Shown here: positions 8,403 to 20,334 of the stretch, one piece after another
How positions within the stretch are numbered: the stretch's first letter is position 1
How the letters are laid out: each line of letters begins with the position of its first letter
Notes under the pieces: model-generated
The model's input: the letters and a program-made list of their open reading frames with translations, nothing else
What the model was told of the DNA's origin: nothing
Database searches by the model: none
Origin: Deltaproteobacteria bacterium
GTDB lineage: Bacteria > Desulfobacterota > Desulfobacteria > Desulfobacterales > JAFDDL01
Direction of reading: 5' to 3'
Assembly: GCA_019310865.1 (NCBI GenBank)
Contig: JAFDDL010000031.1
Location: 1 to 23,726, forward strand
DNA length: 23,726 nt
Made by a program: the position numbers and the translations under genes

Positions 8403-8503
8403 ATGTTGTTTCCTATTGACCCATCGGCCCCTTTTCGATAGGTTCATATGATGTTTAAGTACGGATTTTCTTATTTTTCGAAATGTTGCAAGGATTTTTC
8501 AGA

Positions 8504-9160
8504 ATGACGGAACCCACGATCACACAGGATCAGATTGATGCGCTGTTAAAAGAAGTGGCCATTGAAGATCGAATCCAAAATCAATATGAACGGATAGAAC
8601 TCAAGATCGACCAATTATTGTCTCAAACACAATCAAAGGACCTGACGGCCGCAAAAGCCGCCTTGGGCAGGCAGATGGCATTTGTAACCCGTAACAACTC
8701 CGAATCCCAGGACACGGCCCCGAAGCTGCGCGATGAGATGAAAAAACTGGCGATCGACCTGCTTGGACTGACAAACGATATTGGCCTTTTTGAGCGGATC
8801 GTAAAGCTTCAAACTCTGATTGGTCTCAATCTTTACCGGGTAAAACAGGATCGACGTCAGCACCCACGGTTTCCATTGACGGTTGATGTCACGCTGAAAG
8901 CCAATGGAAATGTCCACCGGCTGTATGCAAACGATATATCCAGCATCGGTCTTTCGCTGATTGCAACGGAAAAATTGCCCGTGGGCAGACGATATGGCCT
9001 CATATTCTCATCGTTGCCGGACCAGGAGCACCAAATCGATGTGCTTCGAGTTCGCAAAATGCCACAAGATCAGCTGTTGATCTACCAAGCCGCCTGCACG
9101 TATGCAAATCTGCTTCCCTGGGCAACCATTCGAAAAATCATCGAGTCAGTTGTTCAATAA
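8504..9160 (+). CDS. PilZ-domain c-di-GMP receptor with FliM-like N-terminal motif
   Basis: The 218-aa product has a C-terminal PilZ domain (about 115-215) with both c-di-GMP-binding signatures: Arg118-x3-Arg122 (RQHPR) and Asp144-x-Ser-x-x-Gly149 (DISSIG). The N-terminal half is helical and probably coiled-coil, with no named domain. Residues 6-15 (ITQDQIDALL) closely resemble the N-terminal CheY-binding motif of FliM (LSQxEIDALL). I chose ATG 8504 because AAGGA lies 9 nt upstream; an ATG seven codons earlier (8483) has no ribosome site. It is a single-gene unit between a divergent peptidase and the convergent icmF. The target is unknown; the motif suggests motility or chemotaxis. Confidence 0.88.
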   Translation: MTEPTITQDQIDALLKEVAIEDRIQNQYERIELKIDQLLSQTQSKDLTAAKAALGRQMAFVTRNNSESQDTAPKLRDEMKKLAIDLLGLTNDIGLFERIVKLQTLIGLNLYRVKQDRRQHPRFPLTVDVTLKANGNVHRLYANDISSIGLSLIATEKLPVGRRYGLIFSSLPDQEHQIDVLRVRKMPQDQLLIYQAACTYANLLPWATIRKIIESVVQ

Positions 9161-9212: not shown

Positions 9213-12200
9213 CTACATGTTTCGGCGATACTGCCCGCCCACATCATACAGCGCGCGGGTAATCTGTCCCAGTGAAGCGTAACGGACCGTATTCATCAAC
9301 TCGGCAAAGACATTTCCGCCTGACAGCGCCGTTTCCTGCAATTTTGCCAGGGCCCCGGGGGCATCGGCTTTGTTTCGCTCCGTAAAGGAAGCCAGTCGGT
9401 CGAGCTGGGACTGTTTCTCATCCTCGGTTGCCCTGACCAACTCAAGTGTATCGGCCATTTCCGACAACCCCACATCCGGATCACGAAACGTGTTGACGCC
9501 GACGATGGGCAGTTCGCCGGTGCTCTTGAGCATCTCGTAATACATAGACTCTTCCTGAATTTTACTTCGCTGATAACCGGTCTCCATGGCACCTAAAACA
9601 CCGCCCCGGGAAGCAAGTCGATCGAATTCCGCCAGAACCGCCTCTTCCACAAGTCGGGTCAACTCTTCCACAATGAAGCTGCCCTGGCTGATGTTTTCGT
9701 TTTTCGCGATTCCCCATTCCCGGTTGATAATTAGCTGAATGGCAAGGGCCCGGCGGACGGATTCAGCGCTTGGGGTGGTGATCGCCTCATCGAAGGCATT
9801 GGTATGCAGGCTGTTGCAATTATCGTATATGGCGCATAGGGCCTGAAGGGTGGTTCGAATATCGTTGAACTGAATGTCCTGGCTGTGCAGCGATCGACCC
9901 GAGGTCTGAATGTGGTACTTGAGCATCTGCGACCGGTCGTTGCCGCCGAGCATGTTGCGCATGGCAATGGACCAGATTCGTCTCGCAACACGCCCGATGA
10001 CGGTGTATTCCGGGTCAAGCCCGTTGGAGAAGAAAAAGGACAGGTTCGGTGCAAAGCTGTCAATATCCATCCCGCGCGACAGATAATACTCCACATAGGT
10101 AAACCCGTTGGCCAGTGTGAAGGCCAGTTGGGTGATGGGGTTGGCCCCGGCTTCTGCAATGTGATATCCGGAAATGGATACGGAGTAGAAGTTGCGGATC
10201 TCTTTCTCGATGAAGTACTGCTGGATGTCACCCATCATCTTGAGTGCAAAATCGATGGAGAATATACAGGTATTTTGCCCCTGATCCTCTTTGAGAATAT
10301 CGGCCTGAACCGTCCCGCGGACGCTTTTTAGCACCTTCTCGCAAATAGACTGATACGACGACGACGCGTCGACCGATGGCTCGCTGCCGGTTTCAGCCCG
10401 GTGGCGGTCCATCTGCTGGTCAATGGCGGTGTTTAAAAACATCGCAAGGATAATGGGCGCTGGTCCGTTAATGGTCATGGAAACAGAGGTGCCGGGTGCA
10501 CATAAATCAAATCCGTCATAAAGGGTCTTGACGTCATCCAGGGTGCAGATGCTGACACCGGATGTGCCCACCTTTCCATAGATATCCGGTCGAATTTCCG
10601 GATCCTGTCCATAAAGCGTCACGGAATCAAAGGCGGTGGACAATCTCTTGGCTTCATATTCAGCCGAAAGCAGTTTAAAGCGCGCATTGGTCCGCCCCGG
10701 CCCACCCTCTCCGGCAAACATTCGGGTCGGGTCCTCATCGGCCCGTTTCAAGGGAAACACACCGGCCGTATAGGGAAAGGCGCCTGGAATATTTTCTCTC
10801 CGCATCCACCGATATATCTCACCCGGGTCCTTGAATCCGGGCAGGGCGACCTTGGGAATTTTCGTATGCGACAAGGATGTATGATAAAGGGGAAGTCGTA
10901 TCTCACGGTCCCGGACATTGTAAACCAGATCGTCTTGGGTGTAGTCATGGCGAATCGCTTCCCATTGGCCGATCAGCTGACGGGTTTCAGGGGCCAGTTG
11001 CGACTCGGACGCTTCGATCGCCTCTTTGAGCTGCGCAGTCAGCGTATCGGCATTCTGCGCTTTGAGTGTCCCGAACGTTTCCTTCAGATGCCATGTTTGT
11101 CGAACCTTGTCCGCCTCGGACTCGGTCTCCCGATGGTAATCCCGAACCGTGTCGGAAATCTCGGCAAGGTATCGGGTCCTTTCCGGTGGAATAATGATGG
11201 TTTTGGATGATGAGGTTTTAATGTCCGATCTGGGCAGGTTCGATGCAAACACCACATCGGTTTTTTCGCCGATGGCATCTATCACCGCATGATACAGAGC
11301 CGTGACACCGTCATCGTTAAATTTCGAAGCGATGGTGCCAAAAACCGGCATATCTTCCGGCGTTCGATCGAAGGCCTGCCGGTTTCGCTGCATCTGTTTG
11401 CGCACGTCCCGAACCGCGTCGTCGCTGCCGCGCTTTTCAAATTTGTTGACAGCCACCAGGTCCGCATAATCGAGCATGTCGATCTTTTCCAACTGGGATG
11501 GGGCGCCAAACTCGCTGGTCATCACATAGAGGGACACATCCACGAGATCCGTCACCATGGAATCCCCCTGGCCGATCCCAGCCGTTTCGACGATGACCAG
11601 ATCGAATCCGGCGGCTTTGGCCACCGAAATGGCATCGGCCAGGGCGTCGGGAATCTCGGCATTGGATTGGCGAGTTGCCATACTTCTCATATACACCCGG
11701 GGATGCCCCAGGGCATTCATCCGAATCCGATCACCCAACAGCGCGCCACCTGTTTTTCGCCGTGACGGATCACAGGAAATAATCGCCACATGGGCATCTT
11801 TGATGTCGTGAAGCAGGCGTAAAATCAATTCATCGGTTAACGACGATTTGCCGGCGCCGCCGGTTCCGGTAATGCCCAGAACGGGTATTTTTGCCGACTC
11901 GATTTTGGCCTGAATCTGCTTTCTGAGATTTACCAGATGGCCGTTTTCTTTTGCCTTGACCTGTTCCACCGCGGAAATCATTCGGGCCACCATGGGCTTG
12001 TTTCCGGGAGAAAGCTGGGCGGCATCGATCTTTTTATCACCGACGATATCAAAATCCATCTGCTGGACCATGTGATTGATCATGCCCTGGAGCCCCATCC
12101 GGGCACCGTCTTCCGGGGAGTAGATTTTGGTAACGCCGTATTGTTTCAACTCCTTGATCTCTTGCGGCACAATCACGCCACCGCCGCCGCCGAAAATCTT

Positions 12201-12488
12201 GATATGGGATGATTCATACTCAGCAAGCAGGTCAACCATGTATTTGAAGAATTCAACGTGCCCACCCTGATAACTGGAAATGGCAATGCCGTGGGCGTCT
12301 TCTTCAACGGCGGCGTCGACGATTTCTTTCACGGATCGGTTATGGCCCAGGTGGATGACCTCCACACCGGTGGACTGAAGAATTCGCCGCATGATATTAA
12401 TGGATGCATCGTGTCCGTCAAATAACGAGGTGGCGGTAACGACACGGATTAGATTCCGGGGCTGGTATACGGTGACTTGCTGATCCAT
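9213..12488 (-). CDS. icmF: Fused acyl-CoA mutase IcmF (isobutyryl-CoA mutase with G-protein chaperone)
   Basis: The 1091-aa product has the full IcmF order. A B12-binding domain (about 12-145) carries FDGHDAS with the cobalt ligand His26 and SYQGGH (72-77). A MeaB-like GTPase chaperone domain (about 165-440) carries P-loop GTGGAGKS (208-215), ETAGIGQGD (301-309) and NKFE (348-351). The large TIM-barrel substrate domain (about 530-1091) includes [25 protein letters not shown] and [10 protein letters not shown]. IcmF interconverts isobutyryl-CoA and butyryl-CoA by an adenosylcobalamin radical mechanism; related enzymes act on pivalyl-CoA, and methylmalonyl-CoA cannot be wholly excluded by eye. 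Length matches the family. AGGAGGG 3 nt upstream sets the start at 12488. A GntR regulator is divergent upstream. Confidence 0.96.
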
Positions 12489-12535: not shown

Positions 12536-12548
12536 CTGGTAAGACCTA
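12536..12548 (-). promoter_or_regulatory. Imperfect GntR/FadR-type operator at the icmF promoter
   Basis: CTGGTAAGACCTA matches the FadR/PdhR-subfamily core TGGTnnnACCA at all but the last core position and shares the TGGT and GACC half-sites with the perfect palindrome at 12706-12718. It lies immediately downstream of the candidate icmF -10 and so would cover the transcription start, the classic position for repression. Confidence 0.62.
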
Positions 12549-12577
12549 ATGGTTGCAAATGTTTATTTTATTGTCAA
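12549..12577 (-). promoter_or_regulatory. Candidate sigma70 promoter for icmF
   Basis: On the minus strand a perfect TTGACA (-35) is followed after 17 nt by AACCAT (3/6 match). The weak -10 and the operator touching it suggest a controlled promoter. The leader to the ATG at 12488 would be about 55 nt. Confidence 0.55.
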
Positions 12578-12599
12578 GATGAAAATGATCCGCCGCCGA

Positions 12600-12700
12600 T
12601 AACAATCAAATCAATATAAATTTTTTTATATAAATATTAGGTTGATAAATAATTTAAATGAGGGTATACTTCAAAAAGTTTTTGTATTGATTCTAATTGA
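12600..12700. other. AT-rich core of the icmF-gntR intergenic spacer
   Basis: The 313-nt spacer between the icmF start (12488) and the regulator start (12802) has no gene. Its middle, from about 12600 to 12700, is strikingly AT-rich with long A/T runs compared with the flanking genes. It separates the two promoter-operator pairs and may be a bendable or easily melted segment. I see no further motif in it. Confidence 0.6.
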
Positions 12701-12706
12701 TATATC
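12701..12706 (+). promoter_or_regulatory. Weak -10-like hexamer for the GntR gene
   Basis: TATATC (4/6 match) abuts the perfect operator. The -35 region is poor (only T-rich sequence around 12678-12684). It is proposed mainly because the geometry mirrors the icmF side, with the operator starting directly after the -10. Confidence 0.35.
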
Positions 12707-12718
12707 TGGTCTGACCAG
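12706..12718 (+). promoter_or_regulatory. Perfect GntR/FadR-type operator palindrome
   Basis: CTGGTC-T-GACCAG is a perfect 6+1+6 palindrome and fits the TGGTCnGACCA core recognised by FadR-subfamily GntR regulators. It lies 83 nt upstream of the regulator start, next to a -10-like element, so it is probably the autoregulatory site. Confidence 0.72.
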
Positions 12719-12801: not shown

Positions 12802-13524
12802 ATGGAAGATCTTTTTAGTCAAATAAAACCCCTCAAAGTATCCAAAGAAGTGGCCAATCAAATCCGGGGCTTAATCAAAGACGGCAAGCTTCAGCCCGGC
12901 GACAAGCTGCCCCCCGAACGAAACCTTGCCGCGTTTTTAGGCGTCGGGCGCTCTTCGCTGCGCGAAGCGATCAACAGCCTTGAAACCATGGGGTTTGTGG
13001 AAACCAAAAAAAGAAAGGGAATCTTTGTCCGCAGTGTCAGCGAACCGATTCTCTCGAATCCTTTAAGAAATCTCATCAAAGAGGATAAACGCAAATTGTT
13101 TCAGCTCTACGAAATCCGAAAGGATATCGAGCTGGCCTCTGCAACCCTTGCCGCCAGGCGGCGAACAGTCGAAGACCTGGCCCGCATACAGGGGTATATC
13201 AACAAGATGGTGTTCGATGCCCGCCGCGGGCACATGTCCACGTCTGACGATATCGGTTTCCATGTCGCGATCGCCCAGGCAACCCACAACGTCATTCGGG
13301 TACACATTCTGAAAAATATTTTCGAACTGTTCAACGAGTTTATCGACCGGGTGGTTGAAATGGTCGCCAAGGAAAAAGATGACATGCTTCACAATATCGA
13401 CCTGCATCAACAGATTTACAACGCCATTGAAAGGGGCGATAGTGAACACGCTCGCAAAACCATGAAAGAACTCCTCGTCTGGATAGAAAAAAACTGGCAA
13501 CATGCGGACAATGCGGGCTGGTAA
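12802..13524 (+). CDS. FadR-subfamily (FCD) GntR transcriptional regulator
   Basis: The 240-aa product has an N-terminal GntR winged helix (about 10-78; GDKLPPERNLAAFLGVGRSS and LREAINSLETMGFVE are typical) and a C-terminal all-helical FCD ligand domain (about 95-225). Three of the usual four FCD metal-ligand positions are present, Asp150, His154 and His202, but the fourth, expected 22 residues after His202, is Leu224. It may therefore bind an acid or acyl-CoA effector without the usual metal centre. I chose ATG 12802 because AGGAAAA lies just upstream and FCD regulators normally begin shortly before the winged helix; a frame from 12733 would add 23 unneeded residues. Its position divergent from icmF and the two shared operators make icmF the likely target. 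Confidence 0.93.
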   Translation: MEDLFSQIKPLKVSKEVANQIRGLIKDGKLQPGDKLPPERNLAAFLGVGRSSLREAINSLETMGFVETKKRKGIFVRSVSEPILSNPLRNLIKEDKRKLFQLYEIRKDIELASATLAARRRTVEDLARIQGYINKMVFDARRGHMSTSDDIGFHVAIAQATHNVIRVHILKNIFELFNEFIDRVVEMVAKEKDDMLHNIDLHQQIYNAIERGDSEHARKTMKELLVWIEKNWQHADNAGW

Positions 13525-14173: not shown

Positions 14174-14922
14174 TTATATCCTGGTCGGTTGCGGCGAATT
14201 TGGCAACTCCCGGTTCATTCGTCCCATGGTATAGCCTTCCAGGTCAAGGGCCACATGGAGATAACCGATTTTTCTAAGCTTATCGATCACTGCCAAACGC
14301 ACATTGTCCTTGAGCATCAGGGACAATTCATCTAAAGGCACCTCAATTCTGGCCATATTGCCGTGGTGCCTAACCCGGCAATTTGTAAAACCGCAGCTTA
14401 GAAGCATTATTTCCGCCTGATCCACCATGTGCAGCGCTGATTTTGTCAGGGGGGTTCCATAGGGGATTCGAGTCGCCAGGCATGCCATGGCCGGTTTGTT
14501 CCAGGTGGGCAGATTCATCTGTTTTGAAAGATTGCGAATATCGTCCTTGCGCAAGTGGTTTCGATGCCAAGTTCCGCTGCGATGGGGATCAGCTGTGAGG
14601 CAAGATCCTTTTTACACAGATAGCATCGCTCTTTGGTGTTGGCCACAAGCGAATCCGGGCCGATATCGTCTCTATGCAATATCCGGTGGGGGACGTTGAG
14701 GGATTCTGCCAATTCACTGGCGACCTGAATCTCACGCGCAGGATGAAACGGCGACACACAGGTCACCGCAACAACGCCATCGCTAAGGATTTTTTTTGCG
14801 ACTGCCAGAAGAAACGTACTGTCAACCCCGCCGGAAAAAGCGATGAGAACGCTCCCATATCCTTTGAAAATACGCTCGAGATGCAACAGTTTGTCAGTCG
14901 GTGTATCAGCAAATGGTTTCAT
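14174..14922 (-). pseudogene. larE: larE (sulfur transferase of nickel-pincer cofactor synthesis), broken by internal deletion
   Basis: Two overlapping frames together make a LarE protein. The 5' part (start 14922) has the PP-loop AFSGGVDSTFLL and the CYLCKKD segment, then runs through AAELGIETT into a stop at 14515. The 3' part is in another frame from about 14555: LRKDDIRNLSKQMNLP, then KPAMACLATRIPYG with the Cys position used for sulfur donation in LarE, and the C-terminal DLEGYTMGRMNREL. In intact LarE roughly 35 residues separate ELGIE from the LTKDDIR-like motif; here they directly abut, in different frames. So about 100-110 nt are missing at about 14555-14562 and the frame is shifted. 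LarE sacrifices a cysteine sulfur to make the cofactor of lactate racemase. No larB or larC is visible nearby. An assembly error is the main alternative to a true pseudogene. Confidence 0.85.
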
Positions 14923-15015
14923 GGTTACCAAATTTCTTTTTTTTAAGATTCCATCAACAAAACAGTTTACAAATACCACCTAATTTAATAATTATGTGTT
15001 TTTAATTTTGCAAGG

Positions 15016-15056: not shown

Positions 15057-16319
15057 ATGGAAAAAAAGAGTCTGCTTGGCGCAACTTCCAAAAAAAAGAG
15101 TGTCACATCTAAAAAGAAAGCGGCCCCAAAAACGACCGCCAAGAAAAATACCACGCCTGCAAAAAAAACTGCAACGACAAAAAAGGCGACAACTGTAAAG
15201 AAAGCAACGGCTGCCAAAAAGGCACCAACTGCCAAGAAGGCACCAATTGCCAAGAAGGCAACATCCGCAAAAAAACGCACGACAGCCAAGACAACAGCAA
15301 AACCGACCATAAAACGTGCAACGAGCCCGAAAAAGAAACCGTTCTCTGTCAAAGCGTTGCTTTTAAAAAAGTTTGATACACAGCCACCGGCCCAGCTATA
15401 CACACCACCCACTGATAAATCGGCCGCCACAATCCCCTCGGCACCGCCATTTATATCCGGCGATTCCGATACAGTTGAAAAACGCAAAGCTCTCCTGCTG
15501 AAAAAATTCGATTTAACAGAACCGGCCCCTGTTGAAAAAACCGATATCGTATCATCTGCAAAGCCCGAGCCCGAACCGAAACCTGAGCCAAAGCCTGAAC
15601 TCAAGCCCGGGTCTTCGTCGAAAAACGAAATTACCGGGACGCCCCCGAAGAAACAAGCACCTGAAAGGTCTGCCTCGAAACCAATGGAACCTGACTATAC
15701 CCGGAAAGGAATCGATCCGATGAAAAAAGCAGCCATCATTGCCGGCGCATGCCTTGTTGTCATCATTGGCCTCATTATCAACGCCAGCTTCTCTAATATG
15801 TCAAAATTTTATGCCAAAGAATCCAGTGGCGCCCTTGAAATTTGGCGCGGAAAGTTCGCCCCCCTGGGAAGTGAGCAACTGATACGCCTCGACGGTGCGG
15901 TTATGTCGGACGAACTCCAGAAATCGTATACAAAATCGGAAGCGTTTTCGTTGATTTTCCAACAATATACCCAGAAAGCCGATGCGCTTCTGGACGCACC
16001 GGGAACACCGGATTTTGACCAAATCCGAGCAACCCTTGAAAAATCGCGTCCATTTGCCATAACCGACAAGCTTTCAGCTGAAATCGGTCGACGCCTAAAG
16101 GCGATTGACATGATGACGCTGATGGTCAAGGCTGAAGTGCTCGCCGGCAAGGATACGCTGGTGGGACTGGAGGCGGCCCGGGATATTTTAAAGAAAGCAT
16201 TCCGTCTGAATCTGGATCGAGCGGAAAGAGACCTGGTCAAGCAAAAAATTCAACGAATCAACAGCCGAATCGACCAGTTGAATCCCACAGGTGAACCAGC
16301 GCTGAACTCGGTTCAGTAA
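15057..16319 (+). CDS. Membrane protein with histone-H1-like Lys/Ala tail, function unknown
   Basis: I do not recognise this 420-aa protein as a named family. Residues 1-97 are an extremely basic, low-complexity tail built from KKA/TAKK-type units (for example KKATAAKKAPTAKKAPIAKK), like bacterial histone-H1 mimics and AlgP. The motif KALLLKKFD then occurs twice (99-107 and 144-152). A Pro/Glu/Lys linker follows (PEPEPKPEPKPELKP, 170-184), then one transmembrane helix (about 224-243) and a helical, probably periplasmic domain of about 175 residues. With the Lys-rich side before the helix, a cytoplasmic N-terminus and periplasmic C-terminus are predicted. AAGAGG about 6 nt upstream supports ATG 15057. 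A DNA- or RNA-tethering inner-membrane protein is one reading; a TonB-like or polar-organising protein is another. Confidence 0.8.
   Translation: MEKKSLLGATSKKKSVTSKKKAAPKTTAKKNTTPAKKTATTKKATTVKKATAAKKAPTAKKAPIAKKATSAKKRTTAKTTAKPTIKRATSPKKKPFSVKALLLKKFDTQPPAQLYTPPTDKSAATIPSAPPFISGDSDTVEKRKALLLKKFDLTEPAPVEKTDIVSSAKPEPEPKPEPKPELKPGSSSKNEITGTPPKKQAPERSASKPMEPDYTRKGIDPMKKAAIIAGACLVVIIGLIINASFSNMSKFYAKESSGALEIWRGKFAPLGSEQLIRLDGAVMSDELQKSYTKSEAFSLIFQQYTQKADALLDAPGTPDFDQIRATLEKSRPFAITDKLSAEIGRRLKAIDMMTLMVKAEVLAGKDTLVGLEAARDILKKAFRLNLDRAERDLVKQKIQRINSRIDQLNPTGEPALNSVQ
15093..15343 (+). repeat. Low-complexity Lys/Ala/Thr repeat region inside the coding sequence
   Basis: Codons for K, A and T dominate, and short units such as gccaagaaggca recur in tandem (clearest around 15200-15270). 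The unit length varies between about 5 and 6 residues, so it is a degenerate protein-level repeat rather than a clean DNA tandem array. Such regions can change length by slippage. Confidence 0.7.
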
Positions 16320-17438: not shown

Positions 17439-18281
17439 TTAATTGGGCTTTGAACCATCAATATAAGCATCCGTAGCGCTTTTACCAGTCTGGTTCTGTA
17501 AATATCGACGCGGAACCAGGGTAATTCTTGGAAACTTGCCCATGGGGCTTTCGTCCACAAGAATGGTGCAACCGTAAGTTTCCTCCAACGTGTCAAACGT
17601 CAGCACATCCCAAGGCTTGCCGATGCTGACCACCTGACCGTCATTCATAAGCAGGAGCCGGTCTGCGTACATGGCCGCCAGGTTGATGTCATGGGATACC
17701 ATAACGATGGTCAGTTGTTTTTCCTTCTTCAATGATTCCATCAGGTCCATGATCCGCAGTTGATGGGACAGGTCCAATGATGCGGTGGGTTCATCGAGAA
17801 TCAACAGCTTCGGTTCCTGGCATAACGCCCGGGCGATGAAAACGCGTTGACGCTCGCCACCGCTGAGCTGATCCAGCTTGCGGTTTGCCAGATGCGAAAT
17901 ACCACTGATCTCAAGGACTTGATTCGCCATTTCAACATCTTTTTCCGTTGCCAGTCCCAGCACACCCAAGTGGGGAAAGCGCCCCATGAGAACCGTTTGC
18001 AGCACCGTAAACGGAAGGTCGGCTGGTGGCACCTGGCCAACAAACGACAGGGTTTTTGCCAGCGCTTTTCTGGCATATGACGAAAACGACCGCCCAAACA
18101 GTTCGACGCTGCCGTGCTGGAACGGTTCCAGTCCGCAGATGGTTTTCAGCAGCGTTGTTTTCCCCGACCCGTTGGGCCCGAGGATGATAAAAAATTCCCC
18201 TTTCTGAATGTGCACATTCAAGCCCTTAAGCACGGGCAGTGCACCGTAAGAATGGGATAAATCTTTAATCTGTATGGCCAT
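17439..18281 (-). CDS. ABC transporter ATPase, BtuD/FecE family
   Basis: The 280-aa product is a cytoplasmic ABC ATPase: Walker A GPNGSGKT (35-42), Q-loop GQVPP (82-86), signature LSGGERQR (139-146), Walker B LLILDEPTASLD (159-170) and the switch His in VSHDINLAAMYADRL. The closest style is the iron-siderophore/cobalamin (BtuD, FecE, HmuV) group. It is the last gene of a three-gene operon, 5 nt after the permease. The C-terminal 25 or so residues (ending DAYIDGSKPN) are extra to the core fold. Substrate is inferred from the binding protein, not from this subunit. Confidence 0.93.
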   Translation of the reverse strand: MAIQIKDLSHSYGALPVLKGLNVHIQKGEFFIILGPNGSGKTTLLKTICGLEPFQHGSVELFGRSFSSYARKALAKTLSFVGQVPPADLPFTVLQTVLMGRFPHLGVLGLATEKDVEMANQVLEISGISHLANRKLDQLSGGERQRVFIARALCQEPKLLILDEPTASLDLSHQLRIMDLMESLKKEKQLTIVMVSHDINLAAMYADRLLLMNDGQVVSIGKPWDVLTFDTLEETYGCTILVDESPMGKFPRITLVPRRYLQNQTGKSATDAYIDGSKPN

Positions 18282-18286
18282 ATGAA

Positions 18287-19294
18287 TTATTTTGATCGTT
18301 TAAGCAGGTAAATAAACAATGGGGCGCCCACCATGGCCGTGATCACCCCGGCCGGCATTTCCCCCTGTTCGAGAAGCGTCCTTGCAAGCACGTCACACAG
18401 GACCAGGTAACTGCCACCCCCCAGAATACAAGCCGGAACAAGAACCCGATGGTCCGCTCCCAGTAACAACCGCAAGGTATGCGGCATGACGAGGCCTACA
18501 AACCCTAAAAGCCCACAATGGCTCACTGTGGCGCTTACCATGAAGGACGTCACCACGAGCAAAATAAGCGAAACCTGCCTAATGTTCACGCCGGATGTAT
18601 GGGCCAGGTCTTTACCCATGAGCAGCAAATTCATCTTATTGGAAAGAAGAAAAATAATGCCGAAACACGGAAGCAGTATCACCATCAACCAGACGGCCTG
18701 ACTTGCAGTCCCCTGACTTAGATCGCCCATGAGCCAGAACATGATACTATGAAGCCTGGCGTCCTGGGTCAGGGAGATGAGAAACATGATCACGGCCGAA
18801 CAAAACGAATTGACCATCACGCCCGATAACAGCAGGGATTCTTTTTTAATAATGTTCCTGCCCGAAGACATGAGCAATATCAATCCAAGGGTTGCGATAC
18901 TGCCGGTAAAGGCCATGAGGCTCACCCCCGGGAAACGGGAAAACCCCAGAATAATTCCGAAAATGGCGCCAATGGCCGATCCGCCGGAAATTCCGAGAAT
19001 ATAGGGTTCCGCCAAAGGATTACGCAAAAGCGCCTGGAACACCAGGCCGCCCACCGAAAGAGCGGCACCGACGGCAATGGCCAGCAGAACCCTCGGTAAC
19101 CGAATCTGCCAGATGATCGTTCGAAGCATAGCGTCTTCGGACTGATCCGTAAACAGCGCACGAACGATTGCGCCAACACTGCTCTCTGTGGAACCGAGAG
19201 TGATGCCAAGCAGGGCTGTGATTGCCAGGATAAAAACCAGCAGCAGCGACATGCGTAACAATTGGATGAATAAGGAAGGCGTTTTACCAGTCAC
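18287..19294 (-). CDS. ABC transporter permease, BtuC/FecCD family
   Basis: The 335-aa product is a polytopic inner-membrane permease with about ten hydrophobic segments. Conserved family blocks are clear: RLPRVLLAIAVGAALSVGG near the N-terminus, NPLAEPYILGISGGSAIGA, and GLLGFVGLVMPHTLRLLLGADHR near the C-terminus, the coupling region that contacts the ATPase. The ATG overlaps the stop of the binding-protein gene (ATGA), showing translational coupling. It imports cobalamin, haem or an iron chelate. Confidence 0.93.
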   Translation of the reverse strand: MTGKTPSLFIQLLRMSLLLVFILAITALLGITLGSTESSVGAIVRALFTDQSEDAMLRTIIWQIRLPRVLLAIAVGAALSVGGLVFQALLRNPLAEPYILGISGGSAIGAIFGIILGFSRFPGVSLMAFTGSIATLGLILLMSSGRNIIKKESLLLSGVMVNSFCSAVIMFLISLTQDARLHSIMFWLMGDLSQGTASQAVWLMVILLPCFGIIFLLSNKMNLLLMGKDLAHTSGVNIRQVSLILLVVTSFMVSATVSHCGLLGFVGLVMPHTLRLLLGADHRVLVPACILGGGSYLVLCDVLARTLLEQGEMPAGVITAMVGAPLFIYLLKRSK

Positions 19295-20184
19295 GGGGCA
19301 GCCTCATACAATTCCGGATGGATGAGTTGTGTCAGCAATTCCAGCCCGTCCACCAATCGGGGAGTGGGTCGATCGAATAAATTTGACTCCTGGATGTAAA
19401 TGCGTTGGTCTCGCGCCGCCGGCATCATCTTCCATTTCATCCAATTTGATTTTACTTCTTTAAATACGCCGACCCGGGCCATTGAGGTAATGATCATGAC
19501 CTCCGGCGCCAGACTCAGCACCTGTTCCGTGCTAAAGCGCGGATAAGAAATCGCCCCACGGGCCAGGTTCACGCCACCGGCACGGACAATCAATTCGTTG
19601 ATAAAAGTTCGGCTGCCCGCCGAAACAATGGGGGAGATGCCGATTTGAAAAAAGACGCGGGGTTTATATGCCGCCTTGGCCACCAACCGATCAACCCGGG
19701 CCACACGTTGTTCAAGATCGGATACCAGCCGCCTGGCGATTCGATCTGCATTGAGCAAGCGCCCGATTTCACTCACCGTGGTGAGCATCGTGCCAAGACC
19801 TTTGGGATCCACGGCATAGACGGGGATTCCCATCAATTCGAGCCGATCGGCCACTGCCTTTGGGTTACCGTCCTTAATGGCGATACAAAGATCCGGCTGC
19901 AAGGCGACGATTCGTTCCAGATCCAGATGCACATAGGAGCCGACTTTGGGAAGGTTTTGGGCGGCCTTGGGATAATCACTGAATCGACTTACCCCCACCA
20001 GAGCGTCCTGTCGCTCAAGGGCAAACACAATTTCGGTGATATTCGGGGCCAGGGCGACCACGCGACGGGGTGTCTCGGGCACCTCAAACTGCCGGCCGAG
20101 TTGATCCGTTACCGTCTTGGCTTGCGTGCCCATCGCCCAGAAAATGGCGGCCAGCGTTACGAAAAAAAAGATCCGCATCCGCAT
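19291..20184 (-). CDS. Periplasmic substrate-binding protein, BtuF/FecB family
   Basis: The 297-aa product starts with a signal peptide (MRMRIFFFVTLAAIFWAMG, cleavage expected after TQA) and a class III binding-protein fold. RRVVALAPNITEIVFAL, VGVSRFSDYP, LERIVALQPDLCIA and DGNPKAV resemble BtuF-type cobalamin binders more than siderophore binders, but this is by eye. I place the start at 20184 because the signal peptide begins there and because the predicted promoter (20273-20301) would start transcription near 20266. No strong Shine-Dalgarno is visible, which makes the exact start less certain. It leads a three-gene import operon. Confidence 0.88.
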   Translation of the reverse strand: MRMRIFFFVTLAAIFWAMGTQAKTVTDQLGRQFEVPETPRRVVALAPNITEIVFALERQDALVGVSRFSDYPKAAQNLPKVGSYVHLDLERIVALQPDLCIAIKDGNPKAVADRLELMGIPVYAVDPKGLGTMLTTVSEIGRLLNADRIARRLVSDLEQRVARVDRLVAKAAYKPRVFFQIGISPIVSAGSRTFINELIVRAGGVNLARGAISYPRFSTEQVLSLAPEVMIITSMARVGVFKEVKSNWMKWKMMPAARDQRIYIQESNLFDRPTPRLVDGLELLTQLIHPELYEAAP

Positions 20185-20272
20185 GCAGCCGATGGTGCGA
20201 TGAGAAGGCCGGTCCCAGCTATTGCAGGCGCGGCCCGGAAAACGTCTGGTTTGATTCGGTTTCATGGAACAC

Positions 20273-20301
20273 ATTGTATGTAACCGGATGAATTGGATCA
20301 A
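20273..20301 (-). promoter_or_regulatory. Sigma70 promoter for the importer operon
   Basis: On the minus strand TTGATC (4/6) and TACAAT (5/6) are separated by 17 nt. The leader to the ATG at 20184 would be about 80 nt; it contains G/C-rich stretches able to pair, but not the conserved boxes of a cobalamin riboswitch. Confidence 0.5.
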
Positions 20302-20334
20302 CAAAAAAGAAACCCACCCGGGAAAAAAGCATGG

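Follow-up and report, generated by a model that had tools for sequence, protein, structure and literature searches.

What controls a B12-dependent mutase gene that shares its upstream region with a divergent regulator gene? The question is posed by a 23,726-nucleotide stretch of DNA from a member of the Desulfobacterales, here called the window, in which icmF (9213..12488, minus strand, ATG at 12488) and gntR (12802..13524, plus strand, ATG at 12802, a start that agrees with homologues) diverge from a 313-bp spacer of 37% GC. The 1091-residue icmF product is a predicted fused isobutyryl-CoA mutase/GTPase; it scored 1910 bits against the NF045497 equivalog model, whose cut-off is 1500, and has the Pfam domains B12-binding, MeaB, and MM_CoA_mutase. 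IcmF is B12-dependent and interconverts the isobutyryl-CoA and butyryl-CoA skeletons, and isobutyrate/butyrate interconversion is important in the anaerobic breakdown of branched acids. The 240-residue gntR product is a GntR + FCD regulator, and two palindromic sites in the spacer are likely, judging by sequence, to be its operators.

Two palindromic sites and the family operator

The first site, O1 (CTGGTCTGACCAG, 12706..12718), is a perfect odd palindrome with its near edge 84 bp from the gntR start codon. The second and weaker candidate, O2 (CTGGTAAGACCTA, 12536..12548, centre 12542), lies with its near edge 48 bp from the icmF start codon and departs from O1 in the outer base of one half-site and in one inner base; the two centres are 170 bp apart. 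An earlier sequence-only reading had reported a perfect palindrome before the GntR gene and a degenerate copy before icmF, and both were found exactly there. Read as the TKGT/ACMA boxes of the FadR subfamily, spaced 3 nt apart, O1 is exact, and O2 consists of TGGT and ACCT, its right box being off by one base. O1 also resembles the operators of E. coli FadR and PdhR. The sequences of the sites and their fit to a family operator were computed directly, as were the residue co-variation, double-site geometry, domain class, and unusual neighbourhood described below.

Perfect 13-base odd palindromes are not rare in themselves: two occur in the spacer and 14 in the window, compared with 0.14 per simulated spacer. 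A 10/10 match to TGGTCNGACCA, the level of O1, arose in only 2 of 20,000 simulated 313-bp spacers, and a match of 8/10 or better, the level of O2, in 1,326 of them (~7%); the window holds seven sites with at most two mismatches to TGGTCWGACCA, compared with 4.7 expected. By mismatch count, O2 is thus unremarkable and proves nothing, and the operators of relatives were therefore examined. The 44 loci used comprise 23 of 80 from the genome_contigs search plus 3 of 6 and 18 of 19 from two further genome searches; the most distant (L024–L080) were excluded, the remaining omissions lie in genomes already counted, L092 was taken as the same locus as L021 (identical sites), and near relatives were counted separately. 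TGGTCNGACCA was present upstream of gntR at 10/10 in 20 of the 44 loci; lowering the threshold to 9/10 raised this to 29, and 17 loci had two sites of at least 9/10. On this sequence comparison, O1 is an operator of the regulator's own family, and the earlier assignment of a FadR-subfamily type of site to this regulator is borne out.

A symmetrised family matrix was then made from 59 sites hand-picked from the upstream regions of relatives, none of them from the window; weaker second matches were dropped and L010 was omitted as a double of L009. Across the 23.7-kb window, the matrix ranked O1 first and O2 second. The probability of the O2 score per 313-bp spacer was 0.00125 with the spacer background and 0.00325 with the window background (4,000 simulations each), part of that score being owed to relatives with proline at residue 51, most of which use GGTAAGACC. 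The exact motif is scarce genome-wide: 10 genomes contain it at 20 places (0–5 per genome), compared with 15 places for the reversed control. This count gives no sign of a wide regulon and is compatible with a local regulator.

Site sequence and residue 51, a recognition-helix position, vary together. Among loci with a scored site, the symmetric GGTC-N-GACC was present in 15 of 17 with Ser51, whereas 17 of 18 with Pro51 had a different core, usually GGTAAGACC in either orientation (Fisher p 6e-7, uncorrected for kinship; there are two large kin groups and far fewer independent events). Six of the 44 loci were not parsed by the HTH pattern, and two without a site and one with Val51 fall outside the 2 × 2 table. 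By alignment, residue 51 is HTH position 39, a position that PMC4494728 links to the central operator bases. The window regulator has Ser51; O1 is thus its expected site, and O2, in which one inner base is that of Pro51-type sites and one outer base is altered, would be suboptimal, with weaker binding expected. Tight self-repression and looser repression of icmF had been proposed previously; the pairing of Ser51 with a strong O1 and a weaker O2 fits that proposal, and the order of affinities is what we infer from it. In 11 of the 12 loci L140–L150 and L157, a GGTAAGACC or GGTTTGACC core starts 14–17 bases before the gntR start codon, a position at which a repressor, once bound, would lie over the region where translation begins.

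The regulator and its relatives

Both domains expected of an FCD-type member of the FadR subfamily, an N-terminal GntR winged helix-turn-helix (73.7 bits) and a C-terminal FCD domain (71.6 bits), were above their Pfam cut-offs. The sequence places the protein in the LldR/PdhR/DhdR branch of GntR/FCD proteins, and a structural comparison matched it best to DhdR and PdhR. It nevertheless stands apart from that group in several respects: it scores below the curated cut-off of every model shown (162.8 against 311 and 145.4 against 330 bits for the LldR/PdhR equivalogs), its neighbour is icmF, and leucine replaces the fourth metal-ligand histidine. The operator of DhdR itself, GTTATCAGATAAC (PMC8651671), also differs.

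An orthologue of E. coli FadR was considered and rejected, as the regulator reaches only 34.1 against 189 bits and 31.5 against 249.2 bits for the NCBIfam FadR models, carries an FCD domain, and is nearest in structure to DhdR and PdhR; it has no reported Pfam match to FadR_C, the domain present in E. coli FadR. For the same reasons, and because many relatives adjoin TRAP or FAD-oxidase genes, the analogy to FadR and acyl-CoA drawn in the sequence-only reading is not supported. LurR of Desulfovibrio, a candidate on account of its lactate theme, was also set aside, being described in PMC6456213 as a two-component response regulator with a different motif.

The sub-family closest to hand (L001–L023, mostly Desulfobacterota) is 40–55% identical to the regulator, L023 being 33% identical, and has a 10/10 operator in 16 of its 23 loci. 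TRAP genes adjoin L001–L010, FAD oxidases adjoin L014 and L019, and other genes are found elsewhere; no icmF was found in any of the 23 loci. Neighbours were named by eye, and Pfam was run on ten of them: it returned DctP in both of the two tested, CCG in two, FAD oxidase in two, and MFS in one, together with three that argue against a common theme, a sulfate permease (L011), TauE (L017), and LrgA (L012). The frequent proximity of relatives to genes for TRAP transporters or FAD-linked oxidases makes a carboxylate a more probable effector than an acyl-CoA; release by an acyl-CoA is possible, but not favoured. Searches for close orthologues, in genome sets that are samples or small groups, gave best identities of 53% in 291 order-level genomes, 50% in six family-level genomes, 49% in 395 phylum-level genomes (with P0004 as the query), and 55% in genome_contigs, and the viral contigs searched yielded two distant HTH-only matches.

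Promoters, geometry, and the setting of icmF

A TTGACA hexamer on the minus strand (12572..12577), located by reading, is the exact −35 that had been claimed for icmF. With a 17-nt spacer, it predicts a start at about 12542, which is the centre of O2; the −10 at that spacing is AACCAT (12554–12549), a weak 3/6 match that is absent from the promoter scan list. The accompanying claim that a −10 directly precedes each site consequently stands only in part: this 3/6 hexamer is the best available to icmF, and a TATATC does occur before the gntR palindrome but, by reading, without a matching −35. The best gntR promoter in the scan was TTGATA-17-TATACT (12642..12670, plus strand, 10/12), which ends 36 bp upstream of O1; transcription from it would be expected to start about 30 bp before O1. 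Two further promoter-like sites were listed, one at 12625–12653 (plus strand) and an icmF-directed one at 12717–12690 (minus strand, 9/12) whose −35 lies inside O1. The resulting total of three in the spacer region compares with 1.4 ± 1.1 in shuffles, and the 12717–12690 match was not accepted as an icmF promoter because the count is within the chance range. No RNA family reached its gathering score in the window, and a cobalamin riboswitch before icmF is thus unsupported at that threshold.

Each site lies by its own gene, O2 48 bp from icmF and O1 84 bp from gntR, as in a double-site divergon with separate sites. According to PMC4494728, in 71 of 100 FadR-subfamily double-site divergons that include the transcription factor gene the two sites stand apart, one close to each gene, and the mirrored pair noticed in the sequence-only reading is thus the commoner of the published arrangements; the circuit itself is ordinary. 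Among relatives, the gntR-TRAP divergons L002 and L004 have site pairs 166 and 168 bp apart, compared with 170 bp in the window, although in both of them the perfect site is the one far from gntR and the degenerate site the one close to it, whereas in the window this order is inverted. Other TRAP-linked loci differ: L001, L003, and L005–L008 have one site of at least 8/10, and L009 and L010 have a pair 112 bp apart. Spacings across the relatives' loci range from 101 to 321 bp, and no common helical phase between paired sites was seen by reading; we therefore make no claim of looping.

Paired sites could also serve the regulator only, as an autoregulatory pair that forms a loop or is simply redundant, with icmF a bystander. 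Five loci (L011, L013, L017, L018, and L022) indeed have two 10/10 sites 125–143 bp apart before gntR and, by eye, no obviously co-regulated divergent gene. In the window, however, O2 is so close to the icmF start codon, and directly on the predicted start point, that an effect on icmF would be expected regardless, and we consider this explanation unlikely.

The setting of icmF is itself unusual. Thirty-six loci of Desulfobacterota, the best-scoring 36 of 68 listed matches, were examined with flanks of ~1.5 kb (some shorter); their IcmF proteins are 65–75% identical to that of the window. A TetR-family gene lies on the same strand just upstream of icmF in 30 of the 36, as counted by a sequence pattern devised after the loci had been viewed (Pfam found TetR_N in 4 of 4 tested), and a thiolase motif lies downstream in 17 (confirmed by Pfam in the one tested). 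By eye, the window ORF list has neither a TetR nor a thiolase gene beside icmF, and within the flanks this gntR was found near icmF at 0 of the 36 loci. With 30 of the 36 having TetR and none this regulator, the regulatory partner has apparently been exchanged: icmF appears, from these gene neighbourhoods, to have left its usual TetR setting and to have come under a regulator family that often adjoins carboxylate uptake or FAD-linked oxidase genes. A site-like sequence preceded icmF in only one of the 36 loci (L081:4622, a Desulfotignum genome), where GGGTCTGACCA lies 27 bases before the gene; it is probably a chance match, since that genome's own regulator is preceded by different cores, TGGTAATACCA and TGGTTTTACCA.

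The closest listed GntR (P0002, 88%) and the closest listed IcmF (P0122, 91%) both carry a longest-contig figure of 16,161 bases (jgi), and on the basis of that shared figure, the icmF-gntR pairing seems to be retained in a sister species. The PilZ gene adjoining icmF in the window (8483–9160) has its 87% match on a 5,275-base contig rather than on the 16,161-base one, which leaves synteny beyond icmF-gntR unconfirmed. None of nine other proteins in the clade of the regulator (P0003–P0011) shares a contig size with the 120 listed IcmF matches, some of their contigs being too short for both genes, and the link to icmF may thus be confined to one genus. No paper naming both isobutyryl-CoA mutase and GntR was found in the open-access collection searched, a scope outside which most subscription papers fall.

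Other genes of the window were noted in passing. A PIN-domain protein (PF01850; 13803–14159, plus strand) is encoded 279 bp downstream of gntR, its VapC model score being below the cut-off. Two overlapping ORFs in different frames (14174–14979, minus strand) look by eye like two parts of one LarE-like ATP-dependent protein, split by a frameshift or a sequencing error. The ORF at 15057–16319 (plus strand) encodes a long N-terminal stretch rich in Lys, Ala, and Thr that looks histone-like, and then a hydrophobic segment, and an ABC transporter set at 17439–20304 (minus strand) looks by eye like a cobalamin or siderophore importer, in a window that has no riboswitch at gathering score.

An altered metal site and the proposed circuit

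Metal-binding FCD regulators (LldR, TM0439, and Atu1419) bind Zn through Asp/Asn and three His (PMC7797058). The window regulator departs from this ligand set, with D150, H154, and H202 present and leucine at the fourth position, 224. In an alignment of 120 listed of 704 matches, Leu224 was found in 11 of 11 members of the regulator's clade, the window protein included, and in 0 of the 109 other homologues listed, all 109 of which keep His224; Arg106 and the other three ligand positions are conserved throughout the 120. The loss of the histidine may predate the link to icmF, because the nine further clade members match no listed IcmF contig.

The lost ligand could instead mark a change of pocket from carboxylate to acyl-CoA, making the regulator a FadR-like sensor of a short or branched acyl-CoA. 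Leu224 throughout the clade and an adjoining gene for an acyl-CoA mutase are what one would cite for this; yet the protein lies far under the FadR family cut-offs, the remaining ligand positions and Arg106 are retained in all 120 listed homologues, and the clade is apparently not icmF-linked throughout, such that we regard this sensor as distinctly unlikely. That O2 is a chance match, O1 alone being real and serving self-control only with icmF regulated otherwise, has in its favour the ~7% of simulated spacers with at least an 8/10 match and the window's seven sites with at most two mismatches, against 4.7 expected, but is very unlikely given a family-matrix P of about 0.001–0.003, the position of O2 in the icmF promoter region, and an O1–O2 spacing similar to that of the L002 and L004 pairs.

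We thus favour, at a probability of roughly 0.7, a local FCD GntR repressor acting on both O1 and O2, with tight autoregulation, looser repression of icmF, and release by a small carboxylate. We infer that the regulator would bind the two sites, presumably as one dimer per site, and repress from each: O1, in the gntR promoter or leader, would impose tight negative autoregulation, and O2, over the predicted icmF start point, a looser repression of icmF. We consider autoregulation very likely and regulation of icmF likely. The effector that would release the regulator is probably of the small carboxylate class, our best guess being a 2-hydroxy or 2-oxo acid or a short branched acid from valine or isobutyrate breakdown.

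A wider evolutionary account is possible, though tentative and rather doubtful. Having lost a metal ligand, a clade of FCD regulators might have changed its effector and, in one lineage of Desulfobacterota, displaced TetR before icmF; it would have done so with two operators arranged much as in two TRAP-linked relatives (~168 bp apart), icmF being the gene at the far operator, and with a reduced-metal or metal-free pocket for a branched-chain acid or acyl-CoA.

Mechanism and layout are already known; what is new here is the pairing of regulator and target together with the altered metal site. If true, the circuit would represent a TetR-to-GntR regulator exchange at icmF, the gene of a B12-dependent carbon-skeleton mutase, and would offer a naturally occurring FCD regulator for testing whether effector sensing needs the metal site.
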